DNA of 64,000 nt from Paraescarpia echinospica (lineage: Eukaryota > Annelida > Polychaeta > Sabellida > Siboglinidae), in the NCBI GenBank assembly GCA_020002185.1, contig JAHLWY010000254.1, forward strand, positions 1-64,000, in the 5' to 3' direction. Shown piece after piece: positions 1 through 64,000 of this stretch (positions are counted from its first letter, which is position 1; the number at the start of each line of letters is the position of its first letter). The notes under the pieces were generated by a model. It was not told where the DNA came from, ran no database searches, and was given only the letters and a program-made list of their open reading frames with translations. Position numbers and translations under genes: made by a program.

Positions 1-406
1 TAAGTTTGATTATATATTCGACATATACAACAATTATTATTACTGTACGTGCATGGTTGAACCTCTTGTATTAATAAGGAGGGCTCATACATACGCATGT
101 GCAAACAATTAAGACCGGCATACCATTAAACTGTTGTTAATTTATCTTAGCTATTTTTTCTGTTCTATTCTGTTCCTGAGTAATATGTCGTCAACATAAA
201 CTGGATTACGATAAACTATACTTCATTAGATTGTCTAAAACTTCATCGCACAGGTACAATAAATATCGAATATAACGAACTCGCTTATAACTCGCCAATA
301 ACAAATAAACAAACCTGTCCCAAGTTTTTGTTATTGGATGTCTGATGAATTTCTGCACAAATAACGAATTTTAATAATGAACTTTCGAACATAACGAACC
401 ATTTTA
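1..406. other. AT-rich non-coding stretch
   Basis: No gene is seen. The stretch contains several short CGTTAT/TTCGA-like words, and the 62-codon minus-strand frame at 285-473 runs into the adjacent hairpin, so I treat it as chance. Copies lie at 40,753-41,158 and 57,900-58,305. Confidence 0.6.
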
Positions 407-505
407 TTCTAAATAACAATTTCAACCTTACATAAACATTTGAATACATAGAGTGATAATCAATGGTATTCAACGTTTATGTAAGCTTGAAATTGTTATT
501 TAGAA
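407..505. repeat. Long hairpin (inverted repeat, copy 1)
   Basis: Arms 407-447 and 466-505 are about 40 bases each, complementary apart from two or three differences, with an 18-base loop. The arms begin TTCTAAATAACAATTTCAA and end in GAATAC/GTATTC. The form suits a fold-back or MITE-like element beside the CATT minisatellite. I see no clear target-site duplication. Confidence 0.85.
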
Positions 506-507
506 TA

Positions 508-1013
508 CGCTGTTCAATGGTTTGTTGAATTGTTTTCAACAATATGCTTCAGTGGTATACCATTCGATGTAATCCAGTGGTATTCTGAATGGTTTACCAA
601 TGGTATACCATAGAACGGTATAATAAATTATACTGGCAAATACCATTGAAAACCATTTAAAATACAATTCAATGATATTTTGAATATTTGATTCAATACC
701 ATTGGTTTGAAGACCATTCAGAATACAATTGAATGATATTTTGAATGAGATTATGAATGACCCTCAGTGGTAAACCATTCGATGATATACCACAGAGGAC
801 CATTTAATACGATTGGATTAAATACCATTCAAATACTCTTGGCCTTAATACCCCCTAATATCCTTGAAATCCATTCAGAATACAATTGAACAGTACAAAA
901 AGGGTTAATTACAAGGACCATTCAAAATACCATTGAAGACCATTCAAATACCATTGGCCATAATACACCCTAATACCATCCAATGATATTTGAGTGGTAT
1001 TTTTGTAAGGGAT
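508..1013. repeat. CATT-type quasi-palindromic minisatellite (copy 1)
   Basis: A degenerate run built from short words such as ACCATTCAATGGTAT, ATACCATTGA and AATGGTATTTGAA. Many are small palindromes, so either strand reads alike. The right edge ends in the word TTTTTGTAAGGGAT. The same edge word, inverted, starts the array at 49,284, so the two belong to one family. No coding potential is seen. Confidence 0.85.
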
Positions 1014-1073
1014 TGATGAGCCTGCGTGTTGTAACTTAAAATCGCCGTATCGCTGGGTGTCCGATCGTAAATA

Positions 1074-2047
1074 ATGTTGAAAAATACTACTATTTTCGCA
1101 ATGGATGTCTACGAATTTAACAACGCAAAACCTACCATTATAAGTGCGGTGATCGTCTTAATCATCATCATGAATGCTCTCGTCATCGCTGTCACCGCCC
1201 AGGTATCATGCACTGCGCGAGGACCGCACTGGACTATTCAAGTTTTCGCTGTGCGTCGCCGACTTGGTAGGTGGTTGCACGGCCATGCCGATCAGCCACC
1301 TTGTGATCAGATGCCACCCCAAGCATACGCCGCACGACCGAATATCTGCCCGAAACACAAATGTTCTGCTACTGGTGGTTCGGATTCATCTTACTCTACA
1401 GCCTCAGCTGCGTGGCCCTGTCGAAGATGATCGCCATATTGAAACCGTTCCGCTATGAGCAACTCCTCACCCGCAATCGTTGCTACGGTATCATCGTCTT
1501 CACGTGGGTAATCGGCGCCGCGCAGGCTGCGGCGAAGTACTCGATAAACGCCACGTGGAACATGTCGATGTATACATACGGGGTACCAAAAAAATTTAAA
1601 CAAGTGTCAACACTGATTCTCTTCACATATATTCTAGCTGTCAACATTCCCGTCATTCCTCTGACCTTTGCCACCATCAGAATCCTGGTCGTCGTTGTGC
1701 GGACACATGCAGAGACAGATAGCAGACAAGGTACTGTCGTTAGGCAATAGGGTCAGACGTGACGCTGGAAACACTGGCTTGGTGACAGATTCGATCGGCT
1801 AAAAATATACTCATTATCTGTTTCGTTTCTCTGGCGCTAAATGTTCCCCTTTTGACATTTGCTGTGTTACGTCATGCCATCCACGACGAGAGAATCACTA
1901 ACGTGTTTCGCTTCATGCAGCACTATGTGGATTTACAGTTGCAATTCCCTCATGAACAGTTTCTTGTATCTCGTTTTGTACCATTCAGTGAGAAAGAAGA
2001 TCATATATATTGTTACGGACATGAGAGATGTACTCCGTAGAGATTAG
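1074..2047 (+). pseudogene. Rhodopsin-class GPCR pseudogene (copy 1)
   Basis: An intronless seven-transmembrane receptor relic spread over several frames. TM1 is in the frame opening at 1,074 (about residues 15-40). TM2 is in the frame of 1,174, with the words LFKFSLCVADLVGG. TM3 to TM5 are in the frame of 1,361, with AILKPFRY after TM3 and a second hydrophobic pair to about 1,700. TM6 is near 1,805-1,870 in the frame of 1,852. TM7 and helix 8 are in the frame of 1,859, with NSLMNSFLYLV in place of NPxxY. The D-R-Y position after TM3 reads S-K-M. There are at least four frame changes and a stop at 1,750, so no receptor can be made. All three copies share the breaks, so inactivation came before duplication. 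Ligand class cannot be told. Confidence 0.8.
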
Positions 2048-2106
2048 CCAGACACGAGATTGATGAATATTGCAAAAGTGGCTAACATTGCATTATGAGA
2101 TCTTTC

Positions 2107-2296
2107 TAGGAAATAATTAACACTCCCGCTTACTACTTACAGATCTACAATAGACGCTCCCCGTAACCGGAAGCCTCCGGGCCGCGATTGACTGTATTCC
2201 ACCACACCAGTAACAGCTTGTTTGATTATTGTATCATTAGACCGGATTGACTATTAAATACGTGATTAAATGCAAGAGAACTTCGTTCTTCTTTAT
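2107..2296 (+). repeat. 5' LTR, copy 1
   Basis: Matches 7,489-7,678 over 190 bases with few differences. The clearest is TTAACACTCCC here against TGAACACTCCC in the 3' LTR. It holds two ATTAAA words near the 3' end, possible polyadenylation signals, and the hairpin AGAACTTCGTTCT close to the end. The ends, TAGG...TTAT, are set by the flanking TTTC duplication; they are not the usual TG...CA. Confidence 0.88.
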
Positions 2297-2380
2297 AATC
2301 AAACACTGCTGAGACGGCGCAGATAAGTACGGGACGGCTATTCGATGGAGAAACTGGTAAATAGACAAATTTACTGAATA

Positions 2381-2490
2381 CCGTCGGCAGCCATCAGCAG
2401 CCGTCTGCAGCCGCTAGAATCCGTCGGCAGCCGTCGGCAGCCGTCGACAGCCGTCGGAAATCGTCGGAAACCGTCGGAAACTGTTGGCAG
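2381..2490 (+). repeat. Decamer array in retrotransposon leader, copy 1
   Basis: Eleven tandem 10-mers related to CCGTCGGCAG run in exact register from 2,381 to 2,490 and pass into the open gag frame. Variants include CCATCAGCAG, CCGTCTGCAG and CCGTCGGAAA. Copy 2 also has eleven units; copy 3 has ten. Ten is not a multiple of three, so unit number changes the frame upstream of gag. Confidence 0.88.
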
Positions 2491-2576
2491 CGACAGCAAG
2501 CTGCGCAACTATTGATAACATTGAAGCCCTACGGACTCTGCCATTCAACTGTCTAGAGCCAGATAACACTGCAAAC

Positions 2577-4646
2577 ATGGTGATTGAGGTTGCGTGTCCA
2601 TTCCCAGGATGTGACCACGTATCACGGAACGACGACGCTGCAATAATAGTCGAGCTCCTAAAGATTCATGGGTTGACACACTCGATTCATGCCGCGGCGA
2701 CACCTGGTGGGAAAATGGAAAAGCTCAAACGCCCTACCGTATCGTTAGCTGGTACGTCAGAAACCTGGGCATACTTTGAAACCAGGTGGGGCGAATATCG
2801 AGACGGCACACGCCTCCGGGGAGACGACATCGTTGTTCAGCTATTGGAGTGTTGTGATGACGAACTGAGACGGGACCTCACTCGTTCAAACGGAGGTTCC
2901 ATGGTCGGAGGCACCGAGGTAAACGTGTTAGCGGCGATGAAGGCACTCGCGGTACGCAGTGAGAACATCATGGTGGCACGGTACGCATTACATGACATGC
3001 GCCAGGGACGCGAGGAACAAATTCGATCATTCTACGCCCGAATCAAGGGTCAAGCTGACACCTGTGATTACCGAATCAAGTGCACCAAAGCAGAGTGCGA
3101 CGAGATGGTCGACTTCGCCGGCAAGATATTGCGCGACGTACTCGCTCGCGGTATAGTGGACGACGAGATTCAGTTGGATTTGATAAGCGACCAGAACCAA
3201 AAGATGAAGATCGAGGAGATGATTAAGTTCGTCGAGGCGCGTGAGTCAGGCAAGCGATCGGCATCGCGCCTGCTGGATACCCCGAGTGTTAACGCGGCGA
3301 GTAGTACATACCGCCGCAATAAGCAACATAAAGTGCGAACCAGGGGCGCGGCGACAACTAAGCCGATACCTGATCCGAAGCCCGAACATACGTTCGACCC
3401 CACGGCATTGTGTTGGTTCTGCGCGGAGAAGGGCCACGGTAAGAACCCGCCGTGGAGCATAAGGAGAAGCCAATGCCCAGCGTACGACAAGCGATGTGGT
3501 AAATGCAAGAACGTGAACCACATAGAACGCGCTTGCCTCGTCAAGGCGTACGCCCGCCGGCCGACTGAGACCGCCGAGACAAGTGACGAACAGTCCGCGG
3601 CCTTCGAACCGTGCACGATGGTAAACGGACCGGTTGCCGACGTCAAGGCAATCGCACTAGACCACCATCTGTACGATAACCTTTGTGACAGGTGGAATAA
3701 ACGCGCATCCGACCCGCAGCCGTACGTCCGGGTCTACGTCGGAGCATTCGAGGAGGATTACCGTGCCCTCGGTTTCGCGCTCAGGAAGCGAGTAAGCGCC
3801 GCCGAACTCCCCGCGATGGCAGATACCGGATGCCAGAGCTGCCTAATGGGCATACAAGTGGCCGAGAGGATGGGGCTCAATGCAGACGACCTCATACCGG
3901 TCACCATGACGATGAGAGCGGCGAACGAGGGAGGGATACCTATCCTCGGAGCGATGGTGGTGCGATTCTCGGGTACCGACAGCCGGGCCATAACGCATGA
4001 GACACGACAAATCGCCTGCATCACCAACACATCAGATCGTATCTTCCTGTCACTGGCCGCGTGCATCGACCTGGGGATGATTAGCGAGACATTCCCTACC
4101 ATTGGCGAGGTCATTGCATCAGATGACGCAGCCACTCCAACCCCATGCCCATGCACACCGCGCACAGCACCGCCGCCACTCCCCAAGGGCCTACCGATGC
4201 CCGCGACCGAGGAGAACCGAGCAGCGATCGAGTCGTGGCTGAAGAGGCGGTACGCGGCGAGCACATTCAACACATGTACCCACCAAACACTGCCCATGAT
4301 GTCGGGCCCACCCTTGCGACTGATGATAGACAAGGATGCGACACCTGTCGCACGACACAGTCCAATACCGGTGGCCGTGCACTGGCAGGACGAGGTCAAG
4401 GCCGGCTTGGACGAGGATGTACGTCTCGGTGTGCTCGAGAAGGTACCAGTCGGCGATCGGGTCACATGGTGCCACCGTATGGTGATTTGTGCCAAAAAGA
4501 ATGGCAAGCCAAGACGCACGGTGGACTTTCAGGCATTAAATGTACATGCGGCACGTGAAACCCACCAAACCCCATCCCCGTTCCATCAGGCGCGAGGTGT
4601 CCCCGAGAACAAGCGCAAGACGGTATTCGACGCTTGGAATGGGTAA
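2577..4646 (+). CDS. Gag-protease-RT(N-terminal) polyprotein, copy 1
   Basis: The start is the first in-frame ATG. The frame is open further upstream, through the decamer array, so a non-AUG or upstream start is possible. Order: an acidic/basic Gag region; zinc knuckles, one expanded (CWFC, then H, then a distant C) and one regular (CGKCKNVNHIERAC, CX2CX4HX4C) at roughly residues 280-325; an aspartic protease with the DTG triad at about residue 425; then the start of reverse transcriptase, with the word RRTVDFQALN. The frame ends at a TAA after F-D-A-W-N-G, inside the conserved RT core, so this is a nonsense mutation and not a natural C-terminus. Pol continues in the same frame just after it. 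The third copy has TAT there, which supports loss of a tyrosine. Confidence 0.85.
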   Translation: MVIEVACPFPGCDHVSRNDDAAIIVELLKIHGLTHSIHAAATPGGKMEKLKRPTVSLAGTSETWAYFETRWGEYRDGTRLRGDDIVVQLLECCDDELRRDLTRSNGGSMVGGTEVNVLAAMKALAVRSENIMVARYALHDMRQGREEQIRSFYARIKGQADTCDYRIKCTKAECDEMVDFAGKILRDVLARGIVDDEIQLDLISDQNQKMKIEEMIKFVEARESGKRSASRLLDTPSVNAASSTYRRNKQHKVRTRGAATTKPIPDPKPEHTFDPTALCWFCAEKGHGKNPPWSIRRSQCPAYDKRCGKCKNVNHIERACLVKAYARRPTETAETSDEQSAAFEPCTMVNGPVADVKAIALDHHLYDNLCDRWNKRASDPQPYVRVYVGAFEEDYRALGFALRKRVSAAELPAMADTGCQSCLMGIQVAERMGLNADDLIPVTMTMRAANEGGIPILGAMVVRFSGTDSRAITHETRQIACITNTSDRIFLSLAACIDLGMISETFPTIGEVIASDDAATPTPCPCTPRTAPPPLPKGLPMPATEENRAAIESWLKRRYAASTFNTCTHQTLPMMSGPPLRLMIDKDATPVARHSPIPVAVHWQDEVKAGLDEDVRLGVLEKVPVGDRVTWCHRMVICAKKNGKPRRTVDFQALNVHAARETHQTPSPFHQARGVPENKRKTVFDAWNG

Positions 4647-4652
4647 CACAGC

Positions 4653-5882
4653 GTGCGTCTGCACGAGGACGATAAACACCTGACGACGTTCATCACGCCG
4701 TGGGGACGTTACCGCTACTGTGTCGCTCCACAGGGGTATCGCGCGTCGGGCGACGGCTACACTCGCCGATACGACGAGATTGTCTCGGGGATAGACGACC
4801 ACACGAAATGCATCGACGACGCCCTGCTCTGGTCGGATAGTATCGCCGACAGCTTCCACCAGGCCGTGCAATGGCTTGACGTGTGCGGTCGGAATGGCAT
4901 AACCCTGAACCCGGGGAAATTCGTCTTTAGCAGCCCCGTCGTGGATTTTGCGGGATTCACCATCACAATGGACAGCGTACTACCCAGCCCGAAATATTCT
5001 GATGCAATCCTGAACTTCCCCGTGCCACGTAACATTCACGACATCCGCTCATGGTTCGGTCTCGTGAACCAGGTCTCATACGCCTTCAGCATGGCGGAAC
5101 GAATGCTACCGTTCCGCGCACTCCTGAAGGCGGGCCAACAATTTCGATGGGACACGGAGCTTCAGGAGATATTCGATGAGTCGAAGGAACACATCGTCCA
5201 GGAAATCGAGACCGGCGTCAGGATATTCGACAAGAGCAAGCCGACCTGCATCGCCACCGACTGGTCGAAAACCGGAATCGGCTTCTGGCTACTGCAGAAG
5301 CACTGTGGTTGCACGCCGGTGAAACCGTTCTGCTGCAACGGCGGCTGGAAAGTGACCCTGGTCGGTAGCCGATTTACACACGCGGCGGAATCGCGCTACG
5401 CCCCGATTGAAGGCGAGGCACTGGCAGTCGCCGACGCACTGGATAAAGCACGCTACTTCGTGCTTGGTTGCGAGGATCTCATCATCGCGGTCGATCACAA
5501 GCCACTCTTGAAGATCTTCGGCGATCGCTCCCTGGAGGATATACCGAACTCGCGACTACGTAACTTGAAAGAGAAAACACTGCGATACCGCTTCCGTGTT
5601 ACTCACGTGCCGGGTATGAAAAACAAAGCAGCCGACGCAATGTCACGCCGCCCTACGGGGCGCCCGGTGAAGACGGACCTCCCGGACGATCACGCATCAC
5701 TATCGGATATCCTATGGGGTCACACTCACCCCGACGCACTGCTTTTGGTCAGAACACACGAACCAGACGACGCTGATTCGGAACTACTGACACACCGTGA
5801 CGCCACCGGGATACTGGGGTCGGTGACATGGGATCGCGTGAGAGGCCACCGCGAGCAACCCCGACATGCACTTACTCACTGA
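4653..5882 (+). CDS. RT core and RNase H fragment of pol, copy 1
   Basis: Same frame as the gag-protease ORF, resuming after its TAA; there is no start codon of its own. The RT core shows FITPWGRYRY, APQGY and the catalytic box C-I-D-D with C in place of the usual Y or F. RNase H follows, with ATDWSKTGIG, a later E-x-x-A-L-A-V stretch, VDHKPL and the end motif NKAADAMSRR. The frame runs off at 5,882, because two bases (GA) are missing near 5,840-5,845 compared with the copies at 33,768-36,506 and near 63,410. The last residues are therefore out-of-frame sequence. It is not expected to make a working enzyme. Confidence 0.85.
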   Translation: MRLHEDDKHLTTFITPWGRYRYCVAPQGYRASGDGYTRRYDEIVSGIDDHTKCIDDALLWSDSIADSFHQAVQWLDVCGRNGITLNPGKFVFSSPVVDFAGFTITMDSVLPSPKYSDAILNFPVPRNIHDIRSWFGLVNQVSYAFSMAERMLPFRALLKAGQQFRWDTELQEIFDESKEHIVQEIETGVRIFDKSKPTCIATDWSKTGIGFWLLQKHCGCTPVKPFCCNGGWKVTLVGSRFTHAAESRYAPIEGEALAVADALDKARYFVLGCEDLIIAVDHKPLLKIFGDRSLEDIPNSRLRNLKEKTLRYRFRVTHVPGMKNKAADAMSRRPTGRPVKTDLPDDHASLSDILWGHTHPDALLLVRTHEPDDADSELLTHRDATGILGSVTWDRVRGHREQPRHALTH

Positions 5883-7389
5883 ACTGATCGAGGACGGCAT
5901 GCCGAAGACTCGGAGCGAGATGCCAGTGTCCATCCGACAGTTTCACCTGTACCGACACGAGCTGTCGACGACCGACGGCGTAGCCATCTATAAGGATCGT
6001 ATCATCATCCCACTCGCGCTACGACACGCCGTGCTGGCCGCCCTCCACGCAGCACACCAGGGCGTGTCTATGATGACGGCAAGAGCGGAAACATCGATAT
6101 TCTGGCCCGGTATGACAGAGGACATCGCCAAGGTCCGCAACGAATGCGAGCACTGCCATCGCATGGCCCCGTCCCAGCCAGCCGCGCCGCCCACCCGGCC
6201 CATATTGCCCGTCTACCCGTTCCAGGCGATATGCTCCGACTTCTTCTCGTACAAGGGCGTGCACTACGTAGTAGTTGTCGATCGCTACTCGAATTGGCCC
6301 ATCATCGCGAAGGCATCGGCGGGCGGGGCTGGCCTGGTTAACATTCTGAGACAGACTTTCGTGACCTACGGGACACCGGAGGAGCTTGCATCGGACGGCG
6401 GTCCAGAATACACATCGACCGACACCCGCCAGTTCTTACGCACATGGGGCGTGAAACATAGGCTGTCCTCAGTCGCCTTCCCCCATAGCAATTGCCGCGC
6501 GGAGGTCGCTGTTAAGACAATGAAGCGCTTGATAACGGACAACACCGGCGGGAAGGGCGATCTGGACACAGATGCAGTACAGCGAGCGGTCTTACAATAC
6601 CGCAACACGCCAGACCCAGACACTAAGATATCACCAGCAATGTGTGTATTTGGTCGCATGATACGTGACTTCATCCCGGTGATCCCCGGCAAGTATCTCC
6701 CCCACGACACCTGGCGCGACACACTACGTGCCCGCGAAGACGCACTCCGCAAAAGGCACATCAAGACGCACGAGTACTGGAGCGAACACACCAGGCGCCT
6801 GCCCGCACTGGCAGTGGGTGACTATGTCCGCATCCAGAACCAAACTGGACAACACCCGAACAAATGGGACCGCACCGGCACGGTCGTGGAAGTCAAACAG
6901 CATGACCAATACCAGGTCAAAGTCGATGGATCCGGTCGCGTGACGCTCCGCAACCGTCGTTTCCTACGGAAGTTCACACCGATCACTTCCCCGGAACCGC
7001 CTCGGCCAATCGATGTAGACCTCGGCACGAGACTAGCCCCGACCCCGCCGCCCCCACGTACGATCCCACCGATGTTGCCATCGCCGCCCGACGTGGCCCC
7101 CACCACACCTGCTGGCCCGGCTCCGGCCCCAGACGTGACTCACCGCTCACCGTCTCACGGCTCACCATCTCCCGTGGCCCCTACGGCTGTCACTACGCCG
7201 TCACACCACCCTACACTGGCCATCGCTACCCCGAGCCGCCCGATAATGCCGAGCTCGATACCACCAGCTAGACGTATCATACCGCTGACGTCACCGTTGC
7301 CACCCAAGGCACCTCCAGAACCTGCTGTGAGACGCTCCAACCGTGAACCCAAGGCACCGGGTTGGCACACTGATAACGAGATGAAATGA
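5866..7389 (+). CDS. Integrase and C-terminal tail of pol, copy 1
   Basis: Separated from the RT-RNase H part by a 2-base deletion; in the inverted copy the two are one frame. An H2C2 zinc-binding domain has two histidines near residues 53 and 64 and the pair CEHC near 98. The DDE core has its first D in ICSDFF, the second in ASDGGPEY and the E in CRAEVAVK. A GPY/F-like module follows (WDRTGTVVEV, then VTLRNRRFLRKF). The last 120 or so residues are proline-, serine- and threonine-rich and end in charged residues. The integrase part is intact as a domain, but it has no upstream polyprotein to be cut from. Confidence 0.85.
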   Translation: MHLLTELIEDGMPKTRSEMPVSIRQFHLYRHELSTTDGVAIYKDRIIIPLALRHAVLAALHAAHQGVSMMTARAETSIFWPGMTEDIAKVRNECEHCHRMAPSQPAAPPTRPILPVYPFQAICSDFFSYKGVHYVVVVDRYSNWPIIAKASAGGAGLVNILRQTFVTYGTPEELASDGGPEYTSTDTRQFLRTWGVKHRLSSVAFPHSNCRAEVAVKTMKRLITDNTGGKGDLDTDAVQRAVLQYRNTPDPDTKISPAMCVFGRMIRDFIPVIPGKYLPHDTWRDTLRAREDALRKRHIKTHEYWSEHTRRLPALAVGDYVRIQNQTGQHPNKWDRTGTVVEVKQHDQYQVKVDGSGRVTLRNRRFLRKFTPITSPEPPRPIDVDLGTRLAPTPPPPRTIPPMLPSPPDVAPTTPAGPAPAPDVTHRSPSHGSPSPVAPTAVTTPSHHPTLAIATPSRPIMPSSIPPARRIIPLTSPLPPKAPPEPAVRRSNREPKAPGWHTDNEMK

Positions 7390-7488
7390 ACTTTCAGTAA
7401 GACTTATAGCATTAAAATGTTTAATCACGCCATTCTAAATGTTCTCAGCTTATTACTCAGACACTCTTCGTAAAAGCTTAGAGGGAGA

Positions 7489-7678
7489 TAGGAAATAATG
7501 AACACTCCCGCTTACTACTTACATATCTACAATAGACGCTCCCCGTAACCGGAAGCCTCCGGGCCGCGATTGACTGTATTCCACCACACCAGTAACAGCT
7601 TGTTTGATTATTGTATCATTAGACCGGATTGACTATTAAATACGTGATTAAATGCAAGAGAACTTCGTTCTTCTTTAT
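7489..7678 (+). repeat. 3' LTR, copy 1
   Basis: 190 bases matching the 5' LTR. It follows the purine tract AGAGGGAGA at 7,480-7,488 and is followed at once by TTTC, the same four bases that precede the 5' LTR. Confidence 0.88.
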
Positions 7679-7682
7679 TTTC

Positions 7683-8043
7683 ATATTTCAAATACAAATT
7701 ACCAGTGAATCTACAGGCCCCATAAACTGTATATCACTTTCTCAACTCGATATAAACTTGTTTTACATAATATGAAATTTTAAGATAAACTTGCGTAAAA
7801 GACGAACAATTAAACTCGCGTGTCATACATTTATTGTTCCGCTTGTCGGACATAGCGACCGTAATTTTGTAAAAACATAATTTATTGAATAAAATAAAAT
7901 CTCACAGTGATATATATATATATATATATATACGGTAGCAAGTACGACCAAAATGAATTATTATTAATAAGTAAATGTTGCTCACGTTGAACATATTCAG
8001 AATGCACCTTTATACGCCAACTTGCCTGTTGCGTTACCCGGAA
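7683..8043. other. AT-rich DNA with a short (TA)n
   Basis: No gene is seen. A (TA)n run near 7,911-7,932 is longer than its partner near 33,232-33,247, one of the few differences between the arms here. Confidence 0.6.
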
Positions 8044-8286
8044 TCATAAACCTTTATTAAGGAGTAAGTAATCATCAATAGGAAGTTCGATGAATGAGCT
8101 GTACAGCGTCCCTGTGGTAGTCTTGATTGCGGAAACAGTACGGTCGCGCACAAATCCGAGGAATTGTTGGTTTGCGTCTTCCTCGCAAGCCAGGGCTGTT
8201 TGCCATGCAAAATTAGTCCTGGCAGATCTCATACGCGAAGTGCGGAAGTTAGCTGAGTCCATTCTCGAGCGCCAGGGGTCGCTCAT
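8044..8286 (-). CDS. Unrecognised 80-codon ORF (copy 1)
   Basis: Opens with ATG and encodes an unrecognised polar protein: an arginine-rich start, then the word QFLGFVRDRTVSAIKTTTG and the ending DDYLLLNKGL. It has no signal peptide, membrane segment or motif I can name. It is more GC-rich than its surroundings and is unbroken in both arms (partner 32,877-33,119, plus strand). Those two facts are the only support for it being a gene or exon. It could equally be a fragment of an unknown mobile element. Confidence 0.25.
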   Translation of the reverse strand: MSDPWRSRMDSANFRTSRMRSARTNFAWQTALACEEDANQQFLGFVRDRTVSAIKTTTGTLYSSFIELPIDDYLLLNKGL

Positions 8287-8550
8287 GCTGATTACTTCAG
8301 TGCCAGCCAGCAGTACCCCATGGCTGATTGCTTTGCGAAACTCTGAATTTAAGCTCAGCCTATGAAATCGCTCACTACAACAGTGAATGTCGGCAGGTCA
8401 GGTTGTCATAATAAAAACTAATTTCAACCACCCTTGGCTCGTGTTACATGCAATGTTTAAGAAGTAGAAGCAATTATTCGAATACACAATACCGCTCAGC
8501 TGCTCCTGCTAATGGGCGAACGGGTCGTTATATATTGGGATTCCGAGAAA
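8287..8550. other. Non-coding stretch
   Basis: I see nothing beyond ordinary AT-rich sequence between the small ORF and dispersed repeat R1. Confidence 0.5.
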
Positions 8551-9072
8551 TCCATCTTGAGACTTGAACAATTCTGAACTAACCACGTGATTATTGATAT
8601 TATGATGTTGAAGCTTCATTACACTAACTACCGAAACCAGAAACTATATCAATTCGCGCGATCTTTAACTTTCTGTCTTACGTTATAAAAAATGTACACA
8701 CACATGTCGATAAAGAGCAAAATTCACAAAACAAACTAAACTAAAATTCGACATCTCTGGCGGTGGCAACCTGTAGTTTTCATATATTATTCAAAATATG
8801 TATCTAGGCTATAAGTAATATACTGCCTATACTTATGCAATAGTAAGTGTACACTATATTTAATATGTGGAGAAGTTTGGTGGCTATCCTATATTATACT
8901 ATAATTTTATAGATAATAGTATACTGTAGACAGTGTAGTCTATAGCCTAGCCTAGGGCTAGGTGGTCGTTATCATAGTAGAACTTAGTCTTAGGTCACAA
9001 AGTAAACTCGCCTCGCCTACATTCTTAATATTAGAATCAAAAGACGAGAGTCTGATAATTAACAAAACAATT
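8551..9072 (-). repeat. Dispersed repeat R1, left-arm copy
   Basis: On the minus strand this reads from TTGTTTTGTTAATTATCAG through CGACCACCTAG, a TATAGTATAATATAGG section, GCCACCGCCAGAGATGTCG and CACGTGGTTAGTTCAG. Parts of the same sequence recur in S1 at 18,445-18,622, 19,767-19,938, 20,491-20,585 and 20,881-21,105. The GCCACCGCCAGAGATGTCG part is one terminal repeat of the MITEs at 20,016 and 20,651; the other end has been lost here. Confidence 0.8.
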
Positions 9073-12125: not shown

Positions 12126-12149
12126 TGTCGTAACGTCACCTATATTTCT

Positions 12150-15318: not shown

Positions 15319-15380
15319 TATAGTGACCTTTTAAAACTCGTTCTTACAGTGGTCGACTAAGTTCTACAAAGCATAAAACC

Positions 15381-17318: not shown

Positions 17319-17320
17319 CA

Positions 17321-54042: not shown

Positions 54043-54720
54043 TTATTTTATTTTATTGCTGAGATCTTTGACCATAATTTTGGCGTTGGCAGTCCAGCAG
54101 TCGTTGATCTTTTTTTGGTTTTTCAGTTTTCTGCATTCATAAGCCAACATTGACCTACGACTTGTTAAATCTTCGTTAACGAAGACCCGTGCATTACTAT
54201 TTCTTCTGTTGTAGTCTTTCAGGTTAAAGCGACTGCGGAAAACGTTATCACGCTTTCGCTCTGTCTTAAAGCGCACAATGATTGGGCGGGACCCCGTGGC
54301 TCGTTTAGCGCCAAGGCGATGGCTTCGCTCTAAGTCCTCTCTAGTTAGTGGCGGCGTAGTTTTCATCTTGTCATTGATGATCTCGAGGACTATGGTGTCT
54401 GTGTCCTCACCCTCGCTTCTTTCCGCGATGCCGTGGAAAGTTAAGTTTGAGCGACGAGTATATTGTTCAAGTTTGTCAGCTGTTTGCTCAAGCGTGTCGA
54501 CCTTCGTTTCCAGCTCGGCAATTCGCGAGTCCTTCGCTCGTATTTCTGTTGTCAAATGTTCGATGCGACCGTTTAGAGTATCGAGTTGTTCCGCAATGTC
54601 ACGCGGATACAACGCACTTTTGAGTTTCGCCAATACGGCATCGTCACTCAGTAACTCGATTAGACGTAATGCGAGGGCCTCCGGATCGTCCGAACTGTTT
54701 CGTCGTGTCTTTGGTGGCAT
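54043..54720 (-). CDS. LINE ORF1 protein, second copy
   Basis: 225 residues, mirror of 44,287-44,964 and intact. One residue differs (S for C in TGSRPIIV). Coiled coil, RRM-like part and basic tail as in the other copy. An open ORF1 beside a badly broken ORF2 means the element cannot move on its own. Confidence 0.85.
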   Translation of the reverse strand: MPPKTRRNSSDDPEALALRLIELLSDDAVLAKLKSALYPRDIAEQLDTLNGRIEHLTTEIRAKDSRIAELETKVDTLEQTADKLEQYTRRSNLTFHGIAERSEGEDTDTIVLEIINDKMKTTPPLTREDLERSHRLGAKRATGSRPIIVRFKTERKRDNVFRSRFNLKDYNRRNSNARVFVNEDLTSRRSMLAYECRKLKNQKKINDCWTANAKIMVKDLSNKIK

Positions 54721-54986
54721 GTTCGGCACTGTGGTGGATGTTGTGTAATCACAGGTGTAGCGATTGTTGTTGGGCCTCGGTAGTTGTTACGTAACCTTGG
54801 TCGGTTGTTTTGTCTGGTCAAGAGCGACGTAGTCCTAGGGAAGCATTTATGGAGTGGACGATAATTGACCCGTTTCAGATTGCACCATTAAATATCTGGC
54901 AAATACCACGAAATGTCATTCTTCTTTTGCGTAGTTAACTCACCTAACCTTTCTTAGGCCCGGATAGTTACCCTGCACACATCTCA

Positions 54987-55444
54987 GCGTCTCAATGGTA
55001 CTCTCAATTGTATTTGAACACACCTACCATTCAGTACCACTGAACCATTCAATGATACAATTAATCATGTTTCGGTGGTACTCATAATGATATTTGAACA
55101 TATCATTCAATACCATTCAATGATAAATCAGTGTTCAGTGTGTCTCAGTGGTACTCTCAATGGTATTTGAACTTATCATTCAGTAGCACTGCACCATTCA
55201 GTGATCAATCAGGTTGGTGCCAGTGGTATGGTATTTGAAAAGTACCATCCAATACCTTTGAAAGGTTACACAACAAACCACGTGTACTGCATGGATACAG
55301 TCGAGCCTCAGTAGTAAACTGGCGAGTCTTATTCATATTTGAAAACATAATTCATTATTCTGAACGTCGACAACGTACCCCTTGCCTAGAAACCATTGAA
55401 CGTTCAGTGGTAAACTGAATGGTACTTTCAACTCAGTGGTACCA
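54987..55444. repeat. CATT-type minisatellite, B' arm, upstream of LINE
   Basis: Mirror of 43,563-44,020. Confidence 0.85.
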
Positions 55445-57101
55445 TAAACGGTATATGTAGATGTTTTTGAAACGTATGTATTGTGTGTCATGTGGTGAAT
55501 GTTTGAGTCAGAATAAAGATTATAATAATTATATGCATGTCTAAGTTACGATGTTTTTATATAACTCTACGGAATAAACCCGCGAATAAACACAATCCGC
55601 GCCGCTCCACACATTTGAAATTACCCGTGAGTCATTTCGATGCGCGCCAACTTTTGAACTGATTTGATTTTGTGTCGTGGTCAAAGAAAGAAACATCATA
55701 ACGAACAAATCAGGCCAGCGTTCGTATTTATGCCACGAAACAAAAGGTAGTAATGTTGTGTGTTGTTTTATAACATTTTGACCAACAGTAATAATACTTA
55801 ACGGCTGGTTACGAAATAATTTTAGTTCTGTGCTCTCGATCGGTCAATGTTTCAATTATCGCACAACGTGCAGTTACGTGCGCAACGTTTAACGACTATT
55901 AAGCCTAATAGTAATAATTTTATATAAAGGAACATCGCGGTCACGTATACTAGACGAAGTTGCTGCAACATATATGGGTAAGTTCACAAATGGCAAACCA
56001 GTGTGTGACATCCAATCCATCCATCCAAATTCAAACTGACATTTTCAAATTCAATGTTTCTTTCCTGCTATGTGGTGTAGAAACGTACAGTTTAATTAAT
56101 TAGACAAAAGCAGATAATGACGCAACTTATATATACATTTTCAACTTGGAAATGCATTACCAGCACCGGCAGCACGTCAGTTGTGGTATAACATGGATAC
56201 CAACTGCAGACAATTTCTCAATCTAACTTATGCATGCTTTGCGTTTGACAGATCGAATGTCTTGCGTTTTTCATTATTCCTGCTTAAATGCAGGTATAAA
56301 AAGAGGCCTTGTCCATTACGCTGTCAGTTGAACAAAAAAGTTAGAAAATATACACTAATAGAATATATTGATAGAATAGACAATAATGACTGTGATCACT
56401 ATTCGGAAGGACGGAATATCCCAGATTGAGATCTTAACTTTTTTGACAAGTACAAGTATAATATTATATTAGCCACACACATTGTATTTTATTGTGTTCT
56501 TTTCCATGTATTTCAGCTTGGTGTCATCGCTGCATGATGGACAAAAGCAAGCTTTCTCCAGGCTGCACAACAATTAAATCAATAACAGTCGTATAGTTTT
56601 TGTGTATTCTGAATTATTGAATATCGTTGTATTATATAATGTATACTGTACATATGTAAGATTTCAGGGCAAAGCGCGATATATCAAAACTCAATTATAC
56701 GCTTCGTCGTTATAGTGTGAATAAAAACTTTGATATAATATTGAAATGTCTTAATAATACAAAATTATGATGATTAATATCAAGAGCCAAACTGTTTTGT
56801 TTACAGTAAAACTTGTTTTTGGACAACCATCTGCTTTCTCACTTCCCCTTAAAATTGACCATCTTTACAATTTGTATTCATATGCCAGATGATAAGGCTA
56901 GACACAACAGGTAGATAGAATTATTTTGTTAGTTGTGGAAATTGTGCAATTTTGTCTGCCCAAAGTATGTAATGGACCATACTGGGTAAAATATATTGAA
57001 CTCTTTTTTCAGGCCAATCCACTGTTTCCATGGTAACAAAGAAAATGGCCACCATTTTGAGCCAACATTGGCACGTTTTGAAACACTGCCATTCTGTTTG
57101 G

Positions 57102-57103
<2 letters not shown>
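55445..57103. other. B' segment, non-coding, with 47-bp extra sequence
   Basis: Mirror of 41,951-43,562. The extra 47 bases at 55,573-55,619 contain two AATAAAC words and a GC-rich centre (CCGCGCCGC). They are missing from the B arm, and the rest aligns closely. The 82-codon frame is at 56,181-56,429 on the plus strand; nothing is recognised. Confidence 0.6.

Positions 57104-57133
<30 letters not shown>
57104..57133. repeat. (CA)15 microsatellite
   Basis: Mirror of 41,925-41,950, two units longer. Confidence 0.95.
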
Positions 57134-57134
<1 letters not shown>

Positions 57135-57899
57135 TATTTTGGCGTACGTTTTATTTTTTAAATAACGTTTTTGGTAAAGGACAAAAAAACCTTGTTTATT
57201 GCAACAAATGTGCTTATCTCTTTTAAACTATTTAAAATTGTCTGATCATTTCAAACAGTTGTGTCTGCTGAATGGAACGCTGAAAACAATATTTGTATAT
57301 AGCATAATTATTTCCAGAGATATCCCATTTCCAAATGCAGAAATTTGAGGGGGAAAATGTATTTAATCAAACTGCATGTTTTGTTATGAAAACATGGATT
57401 ATTAAAAAGGTAGGTCATAAATAAATTTAAAACAAAACAGTCACGGAAGGAGTGAACATGGATCACACCTTCAGTAGTTAGTTGTACTGGGACACCCTAA
57501 GGTTGGTAAGATGTATCATCTTTGTATGTGTCCACGTCGATCATCATGCCCTGTGAGTTGTAGTTGTAACTTAAATGTAAGGCTGTATTTCCTGTTGGCT
57601 ATAACTTTCTATTTTGCCTCGTTAATCCGTGTTGGGCGACATTAGACAACCCATCTTTTTTATATAATGCGGTAAGAACAAGATTTGTATGAAACCTGTC
57701 TGGTACGTAGCTTTCATGTGAATTGCATTTAGTTGGTAATGATGGTGGGAACATTGTGTTCGCTGTTAATCACTTGTTCTAGGGTTTTAGCAGAATTTGA
57801 TTCACGTTTGTGGCACGCGTACAAATGCAATTCTTTCCTCATTGTTATTAAAGTTTATTATTCTGACTACTCGTCTTTTCCCAGACATCTTCTATATCA
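57134..57899. other. B' segment outer part, non-coding
   Basis: Mirror of 41,159-41,924. It joins segment A at 57,900 without any visible break, as B joins A' at 41,158. Confidence 0.5.
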
Positions 57900-58305
57900 T
57901 AAGTTTGATTATATATTCGACATATACAACAATTATTATTACTGTACGTGCATGGTTGAACCTCTTGTATTAATAAGGAGGGCTCATACATACGCATGTG
58001 CAAACAATTAAGACCGGCATACCATTAAACTGTTGTTAATTTATCTTAGCTATTTTTTCTGTTCTATTCTGTTCCTGAGTAATATGTCGTCAACATAAAC
58101 TGGATTACGATAAACTATACTTCATTAGATTGTCTAAAACTTCATCGCACAGGTACAATAAATATCGAATATAACGAACTCGCTTATAACTCGCCAATAA
58201 CAAATAAACAAACCTGTCCCAAGTTTTTGTTATTGGATGTCTGATGAATTTCTGCACAAATAACGAATTTTAATAATGAACTTTCGAACATAACGAACCA
58301 TTTTA

Positions 58306-58404
58306 TTCTAAATAACAATTTCAACCTTACATAAACATTTGAATACATAGAGTGATAATCAATGGTATTCAACGTTTATGTAAGCTTGAAATTGTTATTT
58401 AGAA
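58306..58404. repeat. Long hairpin (copy 3)
   Basis: Same as 407-505. Confidence 0.85.
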
Positions 58405-58406
58405 TA

Positions 58407-58912
58407 CGCTGTTCAATGGTTTGTTGAATTGTTTTCAACAATATGCTTCAGTGGTATACCATTCGATGTAATCCAGTGGTATTCTGAATGGTTTACCAAT
58501 GGTATACCATAGAACGGTATAATAAATTATACTGGCAAATACCATTGAAAACCATTTAAAATACAATTCAATGATATTTTGAATATTTGATTCAATACCA
58601 TTGGTTTGAAGACCATTCAGAATACAATTGAATGATATTTTGAATGAGATTATGAATGACCCTCAGTGGTAAACCATTCGATGATATACCACAGAGGACC
58701 ATTTAATACGATTGGATTAAATACCATTCAAATACTCTTGGCCTTAATACCCCCTAATATCCTTGAAATCCATTCAGAATACAATTGAACAGTACAAAAA
58801 GGGTTAATTACAAGGACCATTCAAAATACCATTGAAGACCATTCAAATACCATTGGCCATAATACACCCTAATACCATCCAATGATATTTGAGTGGTATT
58901 TTTGTAAGGGAT
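58407..58912. repeat. CATT-type minisatellite (copy 3)
   Basis: Same as 508-1,013; I see no difference from copy 1. Confidence 0.85.
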
Positions 58913-58972
58913 TGATGAGCCTGCGTGTTGTAACTTAAAATCGCCGTATCGCTGGGTGTCCGATCGTAAATA

Positions 58973-59946
58973 ATGTTGAAAAATACTACTATTTTCGCAA
59001 TGGATGTCTACGAATTTAACAACGCAAAACCTACCATTATAAGTGCGGTGATCGTCTTAATCATCATCATGAATGCTCTCGTCATCGCTGTCACCGCCCA
59101 GGTATCATGCACTGCGCGAGGACCGCACTGGACTATTCAAGTTTTCGCTGTGCGTCGCCGACTTGGTAGGTGGTTGCACGGCCATGCCGATCAGCCACCT
59201 TGTGATCAGATGCCACCCCAAGCATACGCCGCACGACCGAATATCTGCCCGAAACACAAATGTTCTGCTACTGGTGGTTCGGATTCATCTTACTCTACAG
59301 CCTCAGCTGCGTGGCCCTGTCGAAGATGATCGCCATATTGAAACCGTTCCGCTATGAGCAACTCCTCACCCGCAATCGTTGCTACGGTATCATCGTCTTC
59401 ACGTGGGTAATCGGCGCCGCGCAGGCTGCGGCGAAGTACTCGATAAACGCCACGTGGAACATGTCGATGTATACATACGGGGTACCAAAAAAATTTAAAC
59501 AAGTGTCAACACTGATTCTCTTCACATATATTCTAGCTGTCAACATTCCCGTCATTCCTCTGACCTTTGCCACCATCAGAATCCTGGTCGTCGTTGTGCG
59601 GACACATGCAGAGACAGATAGCAGACAAGGTACTGTCGTTAGGCAATAGGGTCAGACGTGACGCTGGAAACACTGGCTTGGTGACAGATTCGATCGGCTA
59701 AAAATATACTCATTATCTGTTTCGTTTCTCTGGCGCTAAATGTTCCCCTTTTGACATTTGCTGTGTTACGTCATGCCATCCACGACGAGAGAATCACTAA
59801 CGTGTTTCGCTTCATGCAGCACTATGTGGATTTACAGTTGCAATTCCCTCATGAACAGTTTCTTGTATCTCGTTTTGTACCATTCAGTGAGAAAGAAGAT
59901 CATATATATTGTTACGGACATGAGAGATGTACTCCGTAGAGATTAG
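58973..59946 (+). pseudogene. Rhodopsin-class GPCR pseudogene (copy 3)
   Basis: Translates identically to copy 1 in all frames, with the same breaks and the same S-K-M in place of D-R-Y. It therefore groups with copy 1 and not with copy 2. Confidence 0.8.
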
Positions 59947-60005
59947 CCAGACACGAGATTGATGAATATTGCAAAAGTGGCTAACATTGCATTATGAGAT
60001 CTTTC

Positions 60006-60195
60006 TAGGAAATAATTAACACTCCCGCTTACTACTTACAGATCTACAATAGACGCTCCCCGTAACCGGAAGCCTCCGGGCCGCGATTGACTGTATTCCA
60101 CCACACCAGTAACAGCTTGTTTGATTATTGTATCATTAGACCGGATTGACTATTAAATACGTGATTAAATGCAAGAGAACTTCGTTCTTCTTTAT
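60006..60195 (+). repeat. 5' LTR, copy 3
   Basis: 190 bases identical in form to the copy 1 LTR, with the derived TTAACAC. Confidence 0.88.
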
Positions 60196-60279
60196 AATCA
60201 AACACTGCTGAGACGACGCAGATAAGTACGGGACGGCTATTCGATGGAGAAACTGGTAAATAGACAAATTTACTGAATA

Positions 60280-60379
60280 CCGTCGGCAGCCATCAGCAGC
60301 CGTCTGCAGCCGCTAGAATCCGTCGGCAGCCGTCGGCAGCCGTCGACAGCCGTCGGAAATCGTCGGAAACTGTTGGCAG
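60280..60379 (+). repeat. Decamer leader array, copy 3
   Basis: Ten 10-mers; one CCGTCGGAAA unit fewer than copies 1 and 2. Confidence 0.88.
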
Positions 60380-60465
60380 CGACAGCAAGCTGCGCAACTA
60401 TTGATAACATTGAAGCCCTACGGACTCTGCCATTCAACTGTCTAGAGCCAGATAACACTGCAAAC

Positions 60466-62526
60466 ATGGTGATTGAGGTTGCGTGTCCATTCCCAGGATG
60501 TGACCACGTATCACGGAACGACGACGCTGCAATAATAGTCGAGCTCCTAAAGATTCATGGGTTGACACACTCGATTCATGCCGCGGCGACACCTGGTGGG
60601 AAAATGGAAAAGCTCAAACGCCCTACCGTATCGTTAGCTGGTACGTCAGAAACCTGGGCATACTTTGAAACCAGGTGGGGCGAATATCGAGACGGCACAC
60701 GCCTCCGGGGAGACGACATCGTTGTTCAGCTATTGGAGTGTTGTGATGACGAACTGAGACGGGACCTCACTCGTTCAAACGGAGGTTCCATGGTCGGAGG
60801 CACCGAGGTAAACGTGTTAGCGGCGATGAAGGCACTCGCGGTACGCAGTGAGAACATCATGGTGGCACGGTACGCATTACATGACATGCGCCAGGGACGC
60901 GAGGAACAAATTCGATCATTCTACGCCCGAATCAAGGGTCAAGCTGACACCTGTGATTACCGAATCAAGTGCACCAAAGCAGAGTGCGACGAGATGGTCG
61001 ACTTCGCCGGCAAGATATTGCGCGACGTACTCGCTCGCGGTATAGTGGACGACGAGATTCAGTTGGATTTGATAAGCGACCAGAACCAAAAGATGAAGAT
61101 CGAGGAGATGATTAAGTTCGTCGAGGCGCGTGAGTCAGGCAAGCGATCGGCATCGCGCCTGCTGGATACCCCGAGTGTTAACGCGGCGAGTAGTACATAC
61201 CGCCGCAATAAGCAACATAAAGTGCGAACCAGGGGCGCGGCGACAACTAAGCCGATACCTGATCCGAAGCCCGAACATACGTTCGACCCCACGGCATTGT
61301 GTTGGTTCTGCGCGGAGAAGGGCCACGGTAAGAACCCGCCGTGGAGCATAAGGAGAAGCCAATGCCCAGCGTACGACAAGCGATGTGGTAAATGCAAGAA
61401 CGTGAACCACATAGAACGCGCTTGCCTCGTCAAGGCGTACGCCCGCCGGCCGACTGAGACCGCCGAGACAAGTGACGAACAGTCCGCGGCCTTCGAACCG
61501 TGCACGATGGTAAACGGACCGGTTGCCGACGTCAAGGCAATCGCACTAGACCACCATCTGTACGATAACCTTTGTGACAGGTGGAATAAACGCGCATCCG
61601 ACCCGCAGCCGTACGTCCGGGTCTACGTCGGAGCATTCGAGGAGGATTACCGTGCCCTCGGTTTCGCGCTCAGGAAGCGAGTAAGCGCCGCCGAACTCCC
61701 CGCGATGGCAGATACCGGATGCCAGAGCTGCCTAATGGGCATACAAGTGGCCGAGAGGATGGGGCTCAATGCAGACGACCTCATACCGGTCACCATGACG
61801 ATGAGAGCGGCGAACGAGGGAGGGATACCTATCCTCGGAGCGATGGTGGTGCGATTCTCGGGTACCGACAGCCGGGCCATAACGCACGAGACACGACAAA
61901 TCGCCTACATCACCAACACATCAGATCGTATCTTCCTGTCACGGGCCGCGTGCATCGACCTGGGGATGATTAGCGAGACATTCCCTACCATTGGCGAGGT
62001 CATTGCATCAGATGACGCAGCCACTCCAACCCCATGCCCATGCACACCGCGCACAGCACCGCCGCCACTCCCCGAGGGCCTACCGATGCCCGCGACCGAG
62101 GAGAACCGAGCAGCGATCGAGTCGTGGCTGAAGAGGCGGTACGCGGCGAGCACATTCAACACATGTACCCACCAAACACTGCCCATGATGTCGGGCCCAC
62201 CCTTGCGACTGATGATAGACAAGGATGCGACACCTGTCGCACGACACAGTCCAATACCGGTGGCCGTGCACTGGCAGGACGAGGTCAAGGCCGGCTTGGA
62301 CGATGATGTACGTCTCGGTGTGCTCGAGAAGGTACCAGTCGGCGATCGGGTCACATGGTGCCACCGTATGGTGATTTGTGCCAAAAAGAATGGCAAGCCA
62401 AGACGCACGGTGGACTTTCAGGCATTAAATGTACATGCGGCACGTGAAACCCACCACACCCCATCCCCGTTCAATCAGGCGCGAGGTGTCCCCGAGAACA
62501 AGCGTAAGACGGTATTCGACGCTTAG
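60466..62526 (+). CDS. Gag-protease-RT(N-terminal) ORF, copy 3
   Basis: Same layout as copy 1. Up to about residue 470 the translation equals copy 1. After that it carries changes found in neither other copy: IAYITNT for IACITNT, LSRAAC for LSLAAC, LPEGLP for LPKGLP, LDDDVRL for LDEDVRL. It ends at a TAG four codons before the place where copies 1 and 2 have their TAA. The tyrosine codon (TAT) at the TAA site is intact. Confidence 0.87.
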   Translation: MVIEVACPFPGCDHVSRNDDAAIIVELLKIHGLTHSIHAAATPGGKMEKLKRPTVSLAGTSETWAYFETRWGEYRDGTRLRGDDIVVQLLECCDDELRRDLTRSNGGSMVGGTEVNVLAAMKALAVRSENIMVARYALHDMRQGREEQIRSFYARIKGQADTCDYRIKCTKAECDEMVDFAGKILRDVLARGIVDDEIQLDLISDQNQKMKIEEMIKFVEARESGKRSASRLLDTPSVNAASSTYRRNKQHKVRTRGAATTKPIPDPKPEHTFDPTALCWFCAEKGHGKNPPWSIRRSQCPAYDKRCGKCKNVNHIERACLVKAYARRPTETAETSDEQSAAFEPCTMVNGPVADVKAIALDHHLYDNLCDRWNKRASDPQPYVRVYVGAFEEDYRALGFALRKRVSAAELPAMADTGCQSCLMGIQVAERMGLNADDLIPVTMTMRAANEGGIPILGAMVVRFSGTDSRAITHETRQIAYITNTSDRIFLSRAACIDLGMISETFPTIGEVIASDDAATPTPCPCTPRTAPPPLPEGLPMPATEENRAAIESWLKRRYAASTFNTCTHQTLPMMSGPPLRLMIDKDATPVARHSPIPVAVHWQDEVKAGLDDDVRLGVLEKVPVGDRVTWCHRMVICAKKNGKPRRTVDFQALNVHAARETHHTPSPFNQARGVPENKRKTVFDA

Positions 62527-64000
62527 AATGGGTATCACAGCGTGCGTCTGCACGAGGACGATAAACACCTGACGACGTTCATCACGCCATGGGGACGTTA
62601 CCGCTACTGTGTCGCTCCACAGGGGTATCGCGCGTCGGGCGACGGCTACACTCGCCGATACGACGAGATTGTCTCGTGGATAGACGACCACACGAAATGC
62701 ATCGACGACGCCCTGCTCTAGTCGGATAGTATCGCCGACAGCTTCCACCAGGCCGTGCAATGGCTTGACGTGTGCGGTCGGAATGGCATAACCCTGAACC
62801 CGGGGAAATTCGTCTTTAGCAGCCCCGTCGTGGATTTCGCGGGATTCACCATCACAATGGACAGCGTACTACCCAGCCCGAAATATTCTGATGCAATCCT
62901 GAACTTCCCCTTGCCACGTAACATTCACGACATCCGCTCATGGTTCGGTCTCGTGAACCAGGTCTCATACGCCTTCAGCATGGCGGAACGAATGCTACTC
63001 CTGAAGGCGGGCCAACAATTTCGATGGGACACGGAGCTTCAGGAGATATTCGATGAGTCGAAGGAACACATCGTCCAGGAAATCGAGACCGGCGTCAGAA
63101 TATTCGACAAGAGCAAGCCGACCTGCATCGCCAATTGAAAGAGAAAACACTGCGATACCGCTTCCGTGTTACTCACGTGCCGGGTATGAAAAACAAAGCA
63201 GCCGACGCAATGTCACGCCGCCCTACGGGGCGCCCGGTGAAGACGGACCTCCCGGACGATCACGCATCACTATCGGATATCCTATGGGGTCACACTCACC
63301 CCGACGCACTGCTTTTGGTCAGAACACACGAACCAGACGACGCTGATTCGGAACTACTGACACACCCTGACGCCACCGGGATACTGGGGTCGGTGACATG
63401 GGATCGCGTGAGAGAGGCCACCGCGAGCAACCCCGACATGCACTTACTCACTGAACTGATCGAGGACGGCATGCCGAAGACTCGGAGCGAGATGCCAGTG
63501 TCCATCCGACAGTTTCACCTGTACCGACACGAGCTGTCGACGACCGACGGCGTAGCCATCTATAAGGATCGTATCATCATCCCACTCGCGCTACGACACG
63601 CCGTGCTGGCCGCCCTCCACGCAGCACACCAGGGCGTGTCTATGATGACGGCAAGAGCGGAAACATCGATATTCTGGCCCGGTATGACAGAGGACATCGC
63701 CAAGGTCCGCAACGAATGCGAGCACTGCCATCGCATGGCCCCGTCCCAGCCAGCCGCGCCGCCCACCCGGCCCATATTGCCCGTCTACCCGTTCCAGGCG
63801 ATATGCTCCGACTTCTTCTCGTACAAGGGCGTGCACTACGTAGTAGTTGTCGATCGCTACTCGAATTGGCCCATCATCGCGAAGGCATCGGCGGGCGGGG
63901 CTGGCCTGGTTAACATTCTGAGACAGACTTTCGTGACCTACGGGAAACCGGAGGAGCTTGCATCGGACGGCGGTCCAGAATACACATCGACCGACACCCG
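62527..64000 (+). pseudogene. Broken pol (RT, RNase H remnant, integrase start), copy 3
   Basis: The RT core from PWGRYRY to the C-I-D-D box is followed two codons on by a TAG. The connection region is then open to 63,138, where a deletion of about 317 bases joins CATCGCCA to TTGAAAGAG and removes the first two-thirds of RNase H, including ATDWSKTG and VDHKPL. After it the GAGAGAGG site is intact, as in copy 2, and the integrase zinc domain and first DDE residue follow up to the window end. It cannot make a working enzyme. Confidence 0.87.

Follow-up and report, generated by a model that had tools for sequence, protein, structure and literature searches.

Rearrangements in which inverted copies of one segment alternate have been described in several settings. 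The duplication–inverted triplication–duplication (DUP-TRP/INV-DUP) plan is described at PLP1 (PMC4352052), while in yeast triplications attributed to origin-dependent inverted-repeat amplification (ODIRA) secondary events widen the spacers from 40-80 bp to 1.1-34.9 kb (PMC10766186, PMC4689423), and yeast foldback inversions formed through large-loop hairpins show loops of up to thousands of nucleotides and stems down to 4 bp (PMC7467729). On the W chromosome of willow, two consecutive palindromes carry one 20-kb sequence in all four arms and additionally in a pre-arm, an arrangement likened there to P1 and P3 of the human Y (PMC7023750). Here, we analyse two palindromes sharing an arm in the siboglinid annelid Paraescarpia echinospica, on the unplaced contig JAHLWY010000254.1 (C251) of assembly GCA_020002185.1; the window, the whole stretch of DNA that was analysed, is C251:1-64,000, and the contig ends at base 65,413. 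The assembly comprises 1.084 Gb in 3,111 contigs, and C14, on which related copies are found, is a 57.8-Mb scaffold of it.

The arrangement is confirmed and is mostly real DNA. That it is a chromosomal inverted triplication of the DUP-TRP/INV-DUP type, formed in a zinc-finger duplication cluster via two replication template switches, is an interpretation to which we give an even chance; which mechanism acted, whether template switching, ODIRA or foldback, is something that we infer. An earlier note on this DNA had called a chain that shares arms unusual, a view that the precedents in willow W and human Y P1/P3 (PMC7023750) do not sustain.

Two palindromes with a common arm

The contig reads F1–S1–R–S2–F2: a unit U of 23,416 bp (23,830-47,245) stands inverted, as R, between two partial forward copies, and R is its only full copy (Table 1). 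Palindrome 1 is F1-S1-R and palindrome 2 is R-S2-F2, with arm R common to both; F2 runs on past the window to contig base 65,413 and reaches 13,653 bp in all. In self-BLAST, 1-17,318 matches 41,158-23,830 in inverted orientation at 99.57% (37 mismatches, 10 gap openings), 43,434-47,245 matches 55,573-51,761 inverted at 99.74% (9 mismatches) and 35,903-43,434 matches 63,133-55,620 inverted at 99.12%, matches of a length and identity far beyond chance. The arrangement is gapless in the assembly sequence and the window contains no N; the basis of the analysis is the assembly, not reads, and the contig ends 1 and 65,413 limit what is readable on either side of the chain.

The earlier note's two palindromes with one shared arm are borne out by these comparisons, its breakpoints at 17,318; 23,830; 41,158; 47,245; 51,761 and 57,900 are correct, and the direct repeat of the contig start that it placed at 57,900 is recovered as two stretches (1-5,256 / 57,900-63,133 at 99.26% and 5,565-6,428 / 63,135-64,000 at 99.54%). 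Its block size of about 29 kb is wrong, as the common unit measures 23,416 bp and the outer visible copies are partial. The spacers that it considered unique are indeed single-copy within the contig, and S1 and S2 have no mutual match at E 1e-5, but they hold short dispersed repeats also present in the arms. What had been missed is that S1 and S2 are the sequences flanking U itself and that, of the two junctions of each, one looks ancestral and the other is new; the break of the F1 mosaic inside a retrotransposon had likewise gone unnoticed.

Left of a Ty3/gypsy insertion carried by all arms, R and F2 differ at 27 of 8,183 sites, at which the base of the C14 copy, used as outgroup, is kept by R at 14/27 and by F2 at 13/27. 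R and F2 differ from the C14 copy itself at 139 and 140 of the 8,183 sites, respectively, about five times their mutual difference, and of the 16 sites in the left flank of F1 at which R departs from F1 and F2, R has the C14 base at 8 (P 1.4e-14 for random error). Because two readings of one molecule cannot give differences polarised in this way, the arms are separate lineages of DNA that arose after the split from the C14 copy. Read fold-back, against which the arm differences had been held before, is ruled out by the polarised R/F2 differences; taken together with a whole-genome-amplification chimera, to which the hairpin adjoining junction J3 would be congenial, it retains next to no probability, as R and F2 each have the C14 base at about half of the 27 differences. 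Two ordinary haplotypes placed end to end are disfavoured, since the divergence of the arms from the C14 copy is about five times that between them, an argument limited by the heterozygosity, for which the 99.0% identity of C14 contigs Z and Y gives only a guess. An organellar or plasmid-like quadripartite circle is not favoured either, since the Ty3/gypsy, long interspersed nuclear element (LINE) and C2H2 frames and the chromosomal relatives indicate nuclear DNA.

Old and new junctions

J1, between F1 and S1, is new because five other copies of the left part of S1 have a different common upstream flank, in which 10/10 pairs match; apart from the S1 edge (137 bp, one copy), the C251 arm at J1 has in common with that flank only a 165-bp stretch (89%) of Z and Y. 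J1 itself recurs in contig W of C14, where the sequence is identical over 181 bp and 99.92% alike over 1,300 bp. In older paralogs a piece resembling the end of U (U 15.5-16.3 kb, 81-90%) lies on the far side of S1, and J1 does not fall inside it. J2, between S1 and R, looks ancestral; its two witnesses Z and Y are 99% alike and therefore amount to one, and paralog X is without the last ~560 bp of S1 at this junction.

For J3, between R and S2, the comparison took in 7 of the 8 other copies of the left part of S2, and their 1-kb upstream flanks match in 21/21 pairs, while C251 matches 0/7; since these seven copies share an upstream flank that C251 is without, J3 is new. Copies reaching the left edge of S2 occur at at least eight other places in C14:24.34-24.84 Mb, on both strands, and with a query running from the first base of S2 none of these matches starts at query base 1 (among the 40 of 2,647 candidates that were scored). 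The perfect AT hairpin adjoining J3 is one of 2 in 65,413 bp with arms of at least 12 bp and loops of at most 10 nt, and such hairpins, with 5 bp on either side, take up 0.12% of C251 positions, with thresholds set after viewing the site. At the place matching it, C14 ~24,837,350-24,837,400 has an AT-rich inverted repeat; the AT tract at J3 is too variable to place the ancestral bases. No hairpin of this size is found at J1, which adjoins an 81-bp tandem repeat. At J4, between S2 and F2, a LINE reverse-transcriptase frame reads through the junction on the minus strand, and the same LINE is broken at J3; its RVT_1 match has 3.2e-15 for 51,134-51,574 and 1.3e-6, just below the curated cut-off, for 51,495-51,758.

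J2 and J4 look ancestral and J1 and J3 are new, one old and one new junction per palindrome, because of which the old order is read as S2-U-S1 with S1 inverted. From this order, a replication fork leaving U through S1 would have switched strands, landing ~6.5 kb back, and made an inverted copy of U; once past U and S2, it would have switched a second time, adjoining the AT hairpin and ~4.5 kb back, and S2 and U would then have been copied forward. Two such switches would convert S2-U-S1 into S2-U|S1-U'|S2-U-S1, with three copies of U, the middle one inverted, two each of S1 and S2, and two new junctions. The gypsy insertion came first because it is common to all three copies, and later conversion or crossing-over between the gypsy copies may have produced a mosaic of F1 and F2. 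The contig contains three copies of one segment, of which the middle one is inverted and the outer two are cut short by the contig ends, and it has exactly two novel junctions, a count in which J2 relies on effectively one older paralog.

The gypsy insertion, related copies and other content

All three copies of U carry one Ty3/gypsy insertion, encoding reverse transcriptase–RNase H and integrase. In F1, the whole element measures 5.6 kb, its 190-bp long terminal repeats (LTRs) show 2 differences in 190, and it is flanked by a 4-bp target duplication, TTTC, at 2,103-2,106 and 7,679-7,682; the empty site lies at C14:24,850,371-24,850,374. Elsewhere in the assembly, at least 33 further near-identical partial matches to the element occur, and in a protein search the named relatives of its product are from animals (eel, mussels, scallop, sea urchin, corals, anemones).

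Related copies lie in C14:24.3-25.1 Mb, a segmental-duplication cluster with zinc fingers. C14:24,837,397-24,857,540 consists of S2 followed by U without gypsy, with identities of ~98% and 93% to the left and right of the insertion site, respectively, and a more diverged related set occupies C14:24,813,885-24,833,375; a check of C14:24,940,001-24,950,000 for a copy of U gave only an 846-bp match at 90%. The divergence from the C14 copy jumps from ~2% to 4-7% exactly at the gypsy insertion, as if gypsy joined two paralogs. The right end of C251 (64,676-65,413) overlaps exactly with two scaffolded contig ends, C14:24,804,380-24,803,643 reversed (738 bp) and C14:24,863,966-24,864,459 (494 bp), and the contig probably belongs in one of the two C14 gaps flanked by these overlaps.

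Other inverted pairs occur on C14. The S2 copies C14:24,341,425-24,343,925 and 24,434,595-24,437,101 lie ~93 kb from each other, mutually inverted and 99.83% alike over 4,789 bp; they may form a further large palindrome or else be an inverted haplotig. Z and Y form an inverted pair (C14:24,886,984-24,901,165 / 24,919,783-24,905,620; 14.2 kb, 99.05%) across a 1,000-N gap, and the last 4,152 bp of contig X equal the first of contig Y at 99.93%, a pattern that looks like a misplaced scaffolded haplotig.

Within S1, 22,238-23,328 holds thirteen 84-bp zinc-finger repeats, 91% alike, with similar arrays in several C14 paralogs, and the zinc-finger genes of the cluster may be being expanded. U also holds long degenerate GT and ACACC simple repeats (11,525-12,128; 12,903-13,401; 14,519-14,710), mirrored in R. 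Searches for tRNA genes and Rfam families found nothing.

Table 1. Features of contig C251 within the window (positions 1-64,000)
Feature	Position	Strand	Details
F1, partial forward copy of U, left arm of palindrome 1	1..17318	+	17,318 bp; begins at contig base 1
S1, spacer of palindrome 1	17319..23829		6,511 bp; self-BLAST; paralogous copies on C14
R, full inverted copy of U, shared arm	23830..47245	-	self-BLAST
S2, spacer of palindrome 2	47246..51760		4,515 bp; 98% colinear with C14:24,837,397-24,842,402
F2, partial forward copy of U, right arm of palindrome 2	51761..64000	+	12,240 bp in window
J1 (F1|S1), novel	17318..17319		comparison with S1-left copies
J2 (S1|R), ancestral-looking	23829..23830		crossed in paralogs Z and Y at 73-87%
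J3 (R|S2), novel	47245..47246		comparison with other S2 copies
J4 (S2|F2), ancestral-looking	51760..51761		C14 colinear at 98%
Perfect AT hairpin	47250..47283		14-bp arms, 6-nt loop; 4 bp from J3
Mosaic breakpoint in F1	3819..3998		left F1=F2 vs R; right F1=R vs F2
Ty3/gypsy in F1	2107..7678	+	LTRs 2,107-2,296 and 7,489-7,678
Ty3/gypsy insertion in R	33483..39052	-	limits approximate; same insertion as F1
Ty3/gypsy insertion in F2	60006..64000, past window	+	same insertion as F1
C2H2 zinc-finger frame in S1	22103..23353	+	416 codons; 84-bp repeat x13
LINE endonuclease frame in R, truncated at J3	46114..47245	+	
LINE continuation (RVT_1) in S2, beside F2 only	51134..51758	-	
81-bp tandem repeat at the S1 edge, at J1	17320..17497	+	2.2 copies; more copies in paralog X

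The proposed triplication, its rivals and known systems

Among F1, R and F2, 42 sites are variable in 6,099 columns, 22 of which single out R, 19 F2 and 1 F1. Left of the breakpoint F1 agrees with F2 at 22/23 sites, and right of it F1 agrees with R at 18/19, the remaining site being that of F1 alone; all 22 R sites lie left of 3,819 and 18/19 F2 sites right of 3,998 (Fisher P 9.4e-11). In a longer comparison the odd sites of F2 stop at 6,781, and at 7,649 F1 equals F2 against R again. The F2 gypsy has a divergent patch at ~61.8-64.4 kb with a 307-bp gap relative to F1 and R, in which 4 of the 5 polarisable F2 sites carry the base of two other gypsy copies, the 18 others not being polarisable. 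Differences between F1 and R come in clusters (dispersion P 5e-5; the longest stretch free of them is 3,022 bp, P 0.03), and contig W differs from F1 at 3/10,211 sites and from R at 12/10,202. The mosaic and the clustering fit conversion or crossing-over between gypsy copies, and equally fit an assembler switching between copies.

Several observations weigh against an inverted triplication read along one continuous molecule. J1 shows no clear microhomology and is a 1-bp insertion or a blunt join, and C251 is the only place where J3 is seen. The contig does not contain the further copies of S1 and S2 that are predicted beyond its two ends, and contig W, which overlaps the right end of C251, shows J1 and not the predicted ancestral end of U; if W is the next piece, it would mean a longer array or the other haplotype. 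Contigs W and Z both stop inside the 3' part of gypsy, 7,098 and 7,342 bases into U; the mosaic of F1 is likewise broken inside gypsy, which weakens the continuity of the chain, and the link from palindrome 1 to palindrome 2 passes through R's multi-copy gypsy. Moreover, the two halves of U in R differ in their divergence from the C14 copy, with 17.0 per kb in the left and 39.7 in the right half.

These points bear most directly on an assembly join, in which the palindromes or parts of them are real and two or three paralogous loci or haplotypes have been linked through the multi-copy gypsy, a tentative explanation that falls clearly short of an even chance and yet is not a small one. F1 changes from F2-like to R-like inside gypsy, the contigs ending inside this element, W and Z, overlap the right end of C251 exactly (738/738 and 494/494 bases), and the left half of F2 together with the right half of Z gives an evenly diverged relative of contig X (~17 and 15 per kb). 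In the examined stretch of C14, moreover, long near-identical inverted pairs are found only across scaffold gaps, such as the 14.2 kb of Z/Y, and the last 4,152 bp of X return at the start of Y (99.93%). However, J1 is found again in W, J2 and J4 agree with paralogs, J3 lies at a hairpin, a site that random joining would not favour, and the core junctions of both palindromes are outside gypsy; the arms are also mutually closer than the C14 copy is to either, which makes them seem unlike two ordinary alleles. An assembly join could affect the chain more than each single palindrome, and an origin in assembly for the link between the two palindromes is given roughly that same lesser weight.

If the chain were instead longer, F-S1-R-S2 would be a 57.9-kb inverted dimer, in a circle or a tandem array, of which the contig is one turn plus 7.5 kb. 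In its favour, a single substitution and one 10-bp gap separate F1 from F2 in their first 3.8 kb, W (738-bp exact overlap; 3/10,211 against F1) repeats J1 and the first 1.5 kb of S1, and an inverted dimeric circle is an intermediate in the ODIRA model (PMC4689423). Past 3,998, however, F2 and F1 differ by 18 substitutions in the 6.1 kb compared and by 307-bp and 12-bp gaps, W departs from S1 after ~2.4 kb, and W lies within the C14 scaffold, hence gives no evidence of a circle; we consider this explanation unlikely. Its elaborated form, with 57.9-kb F-S1-R-S2 repeats in a longer alternating palindrome array that arose from an inverted-dimer circle and was homogenised by gypsy-mediated conversion, is unlikely too, if slightly less so. 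Breakage-fusion-bridge, by two sister-fusion cycles with unequal ends, would also yield alternating orientation, together with a single-copy spacer that meets one of the arms at a new junction, but palindrome 2 should then be a mirror of all that lies beyond U, S1 and F1 included, for which the contig is too short, and a terminal deletion or new chromosome end would be expected, whereas the relatives lie inside the 57.8-Mb scaffold; it is improbable, well below a longer chain.

If C251 represents one molecule, it would be a germline inverted triplication with an unrearranged relative, older paralogs and a shared gypsy insertion as time marker, and it would make the order of events readable for a class of rearrangement otherwise known mainly from human disease variants and yeast selection; it would further point to inverted duplication as a possible source of new copies in a zinc-finger cluster. 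If a longer array were true, the cluster would grow by inverted dimers and not by head-to-tail repeats, with W as the next turn. If an assembly join lies behind the chain, it is a warning that one 5.6-kb retrotransposon can tie paralogs into a false chain.

With the DUP-TRP/INV-DUP plan (PMC4352052), C251 shares a segment present three times with the middle copy inverted, only two novel junctions, and flanks placed between the copies. In that plan, large inverted repeats that were already present contain the first junction, and most second junctions show 1-4 bp of microhomology, whereas in C251 J1 is a near-blunt join and J3 adjoins an AT hairpin; those are, furthermore, new patient variants, while the arrangement of C251 stands in a reference contig and has diverged by ~0.3%. 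ODIRA likewise produces inverted triplications, with junctions at inverted repeats (PMC4689423, PMC10766186); the spacers of C251 are kilobases long, and of its two new junctions only J3 adjoins an inverted repeat. The yeast foldback inversions (PMC7467729) are similar in being hairpin-primed inverted duplications and offer a further route to kilobase spacers, but they are selected chromosome-arm events that capture a chromosome end, while C251 would have two events around one interstitial segment. The willow W palindromes resemble C251 in having adjacent palindromes, arms >99% alike, a partial extra arm, kilobase spacers and LTR insertions; they belong to a sex-determining region in which data from two species point to conversion (PMC7023750), whereas the arms of C251 belong to a zinc-finger duplication cluster.

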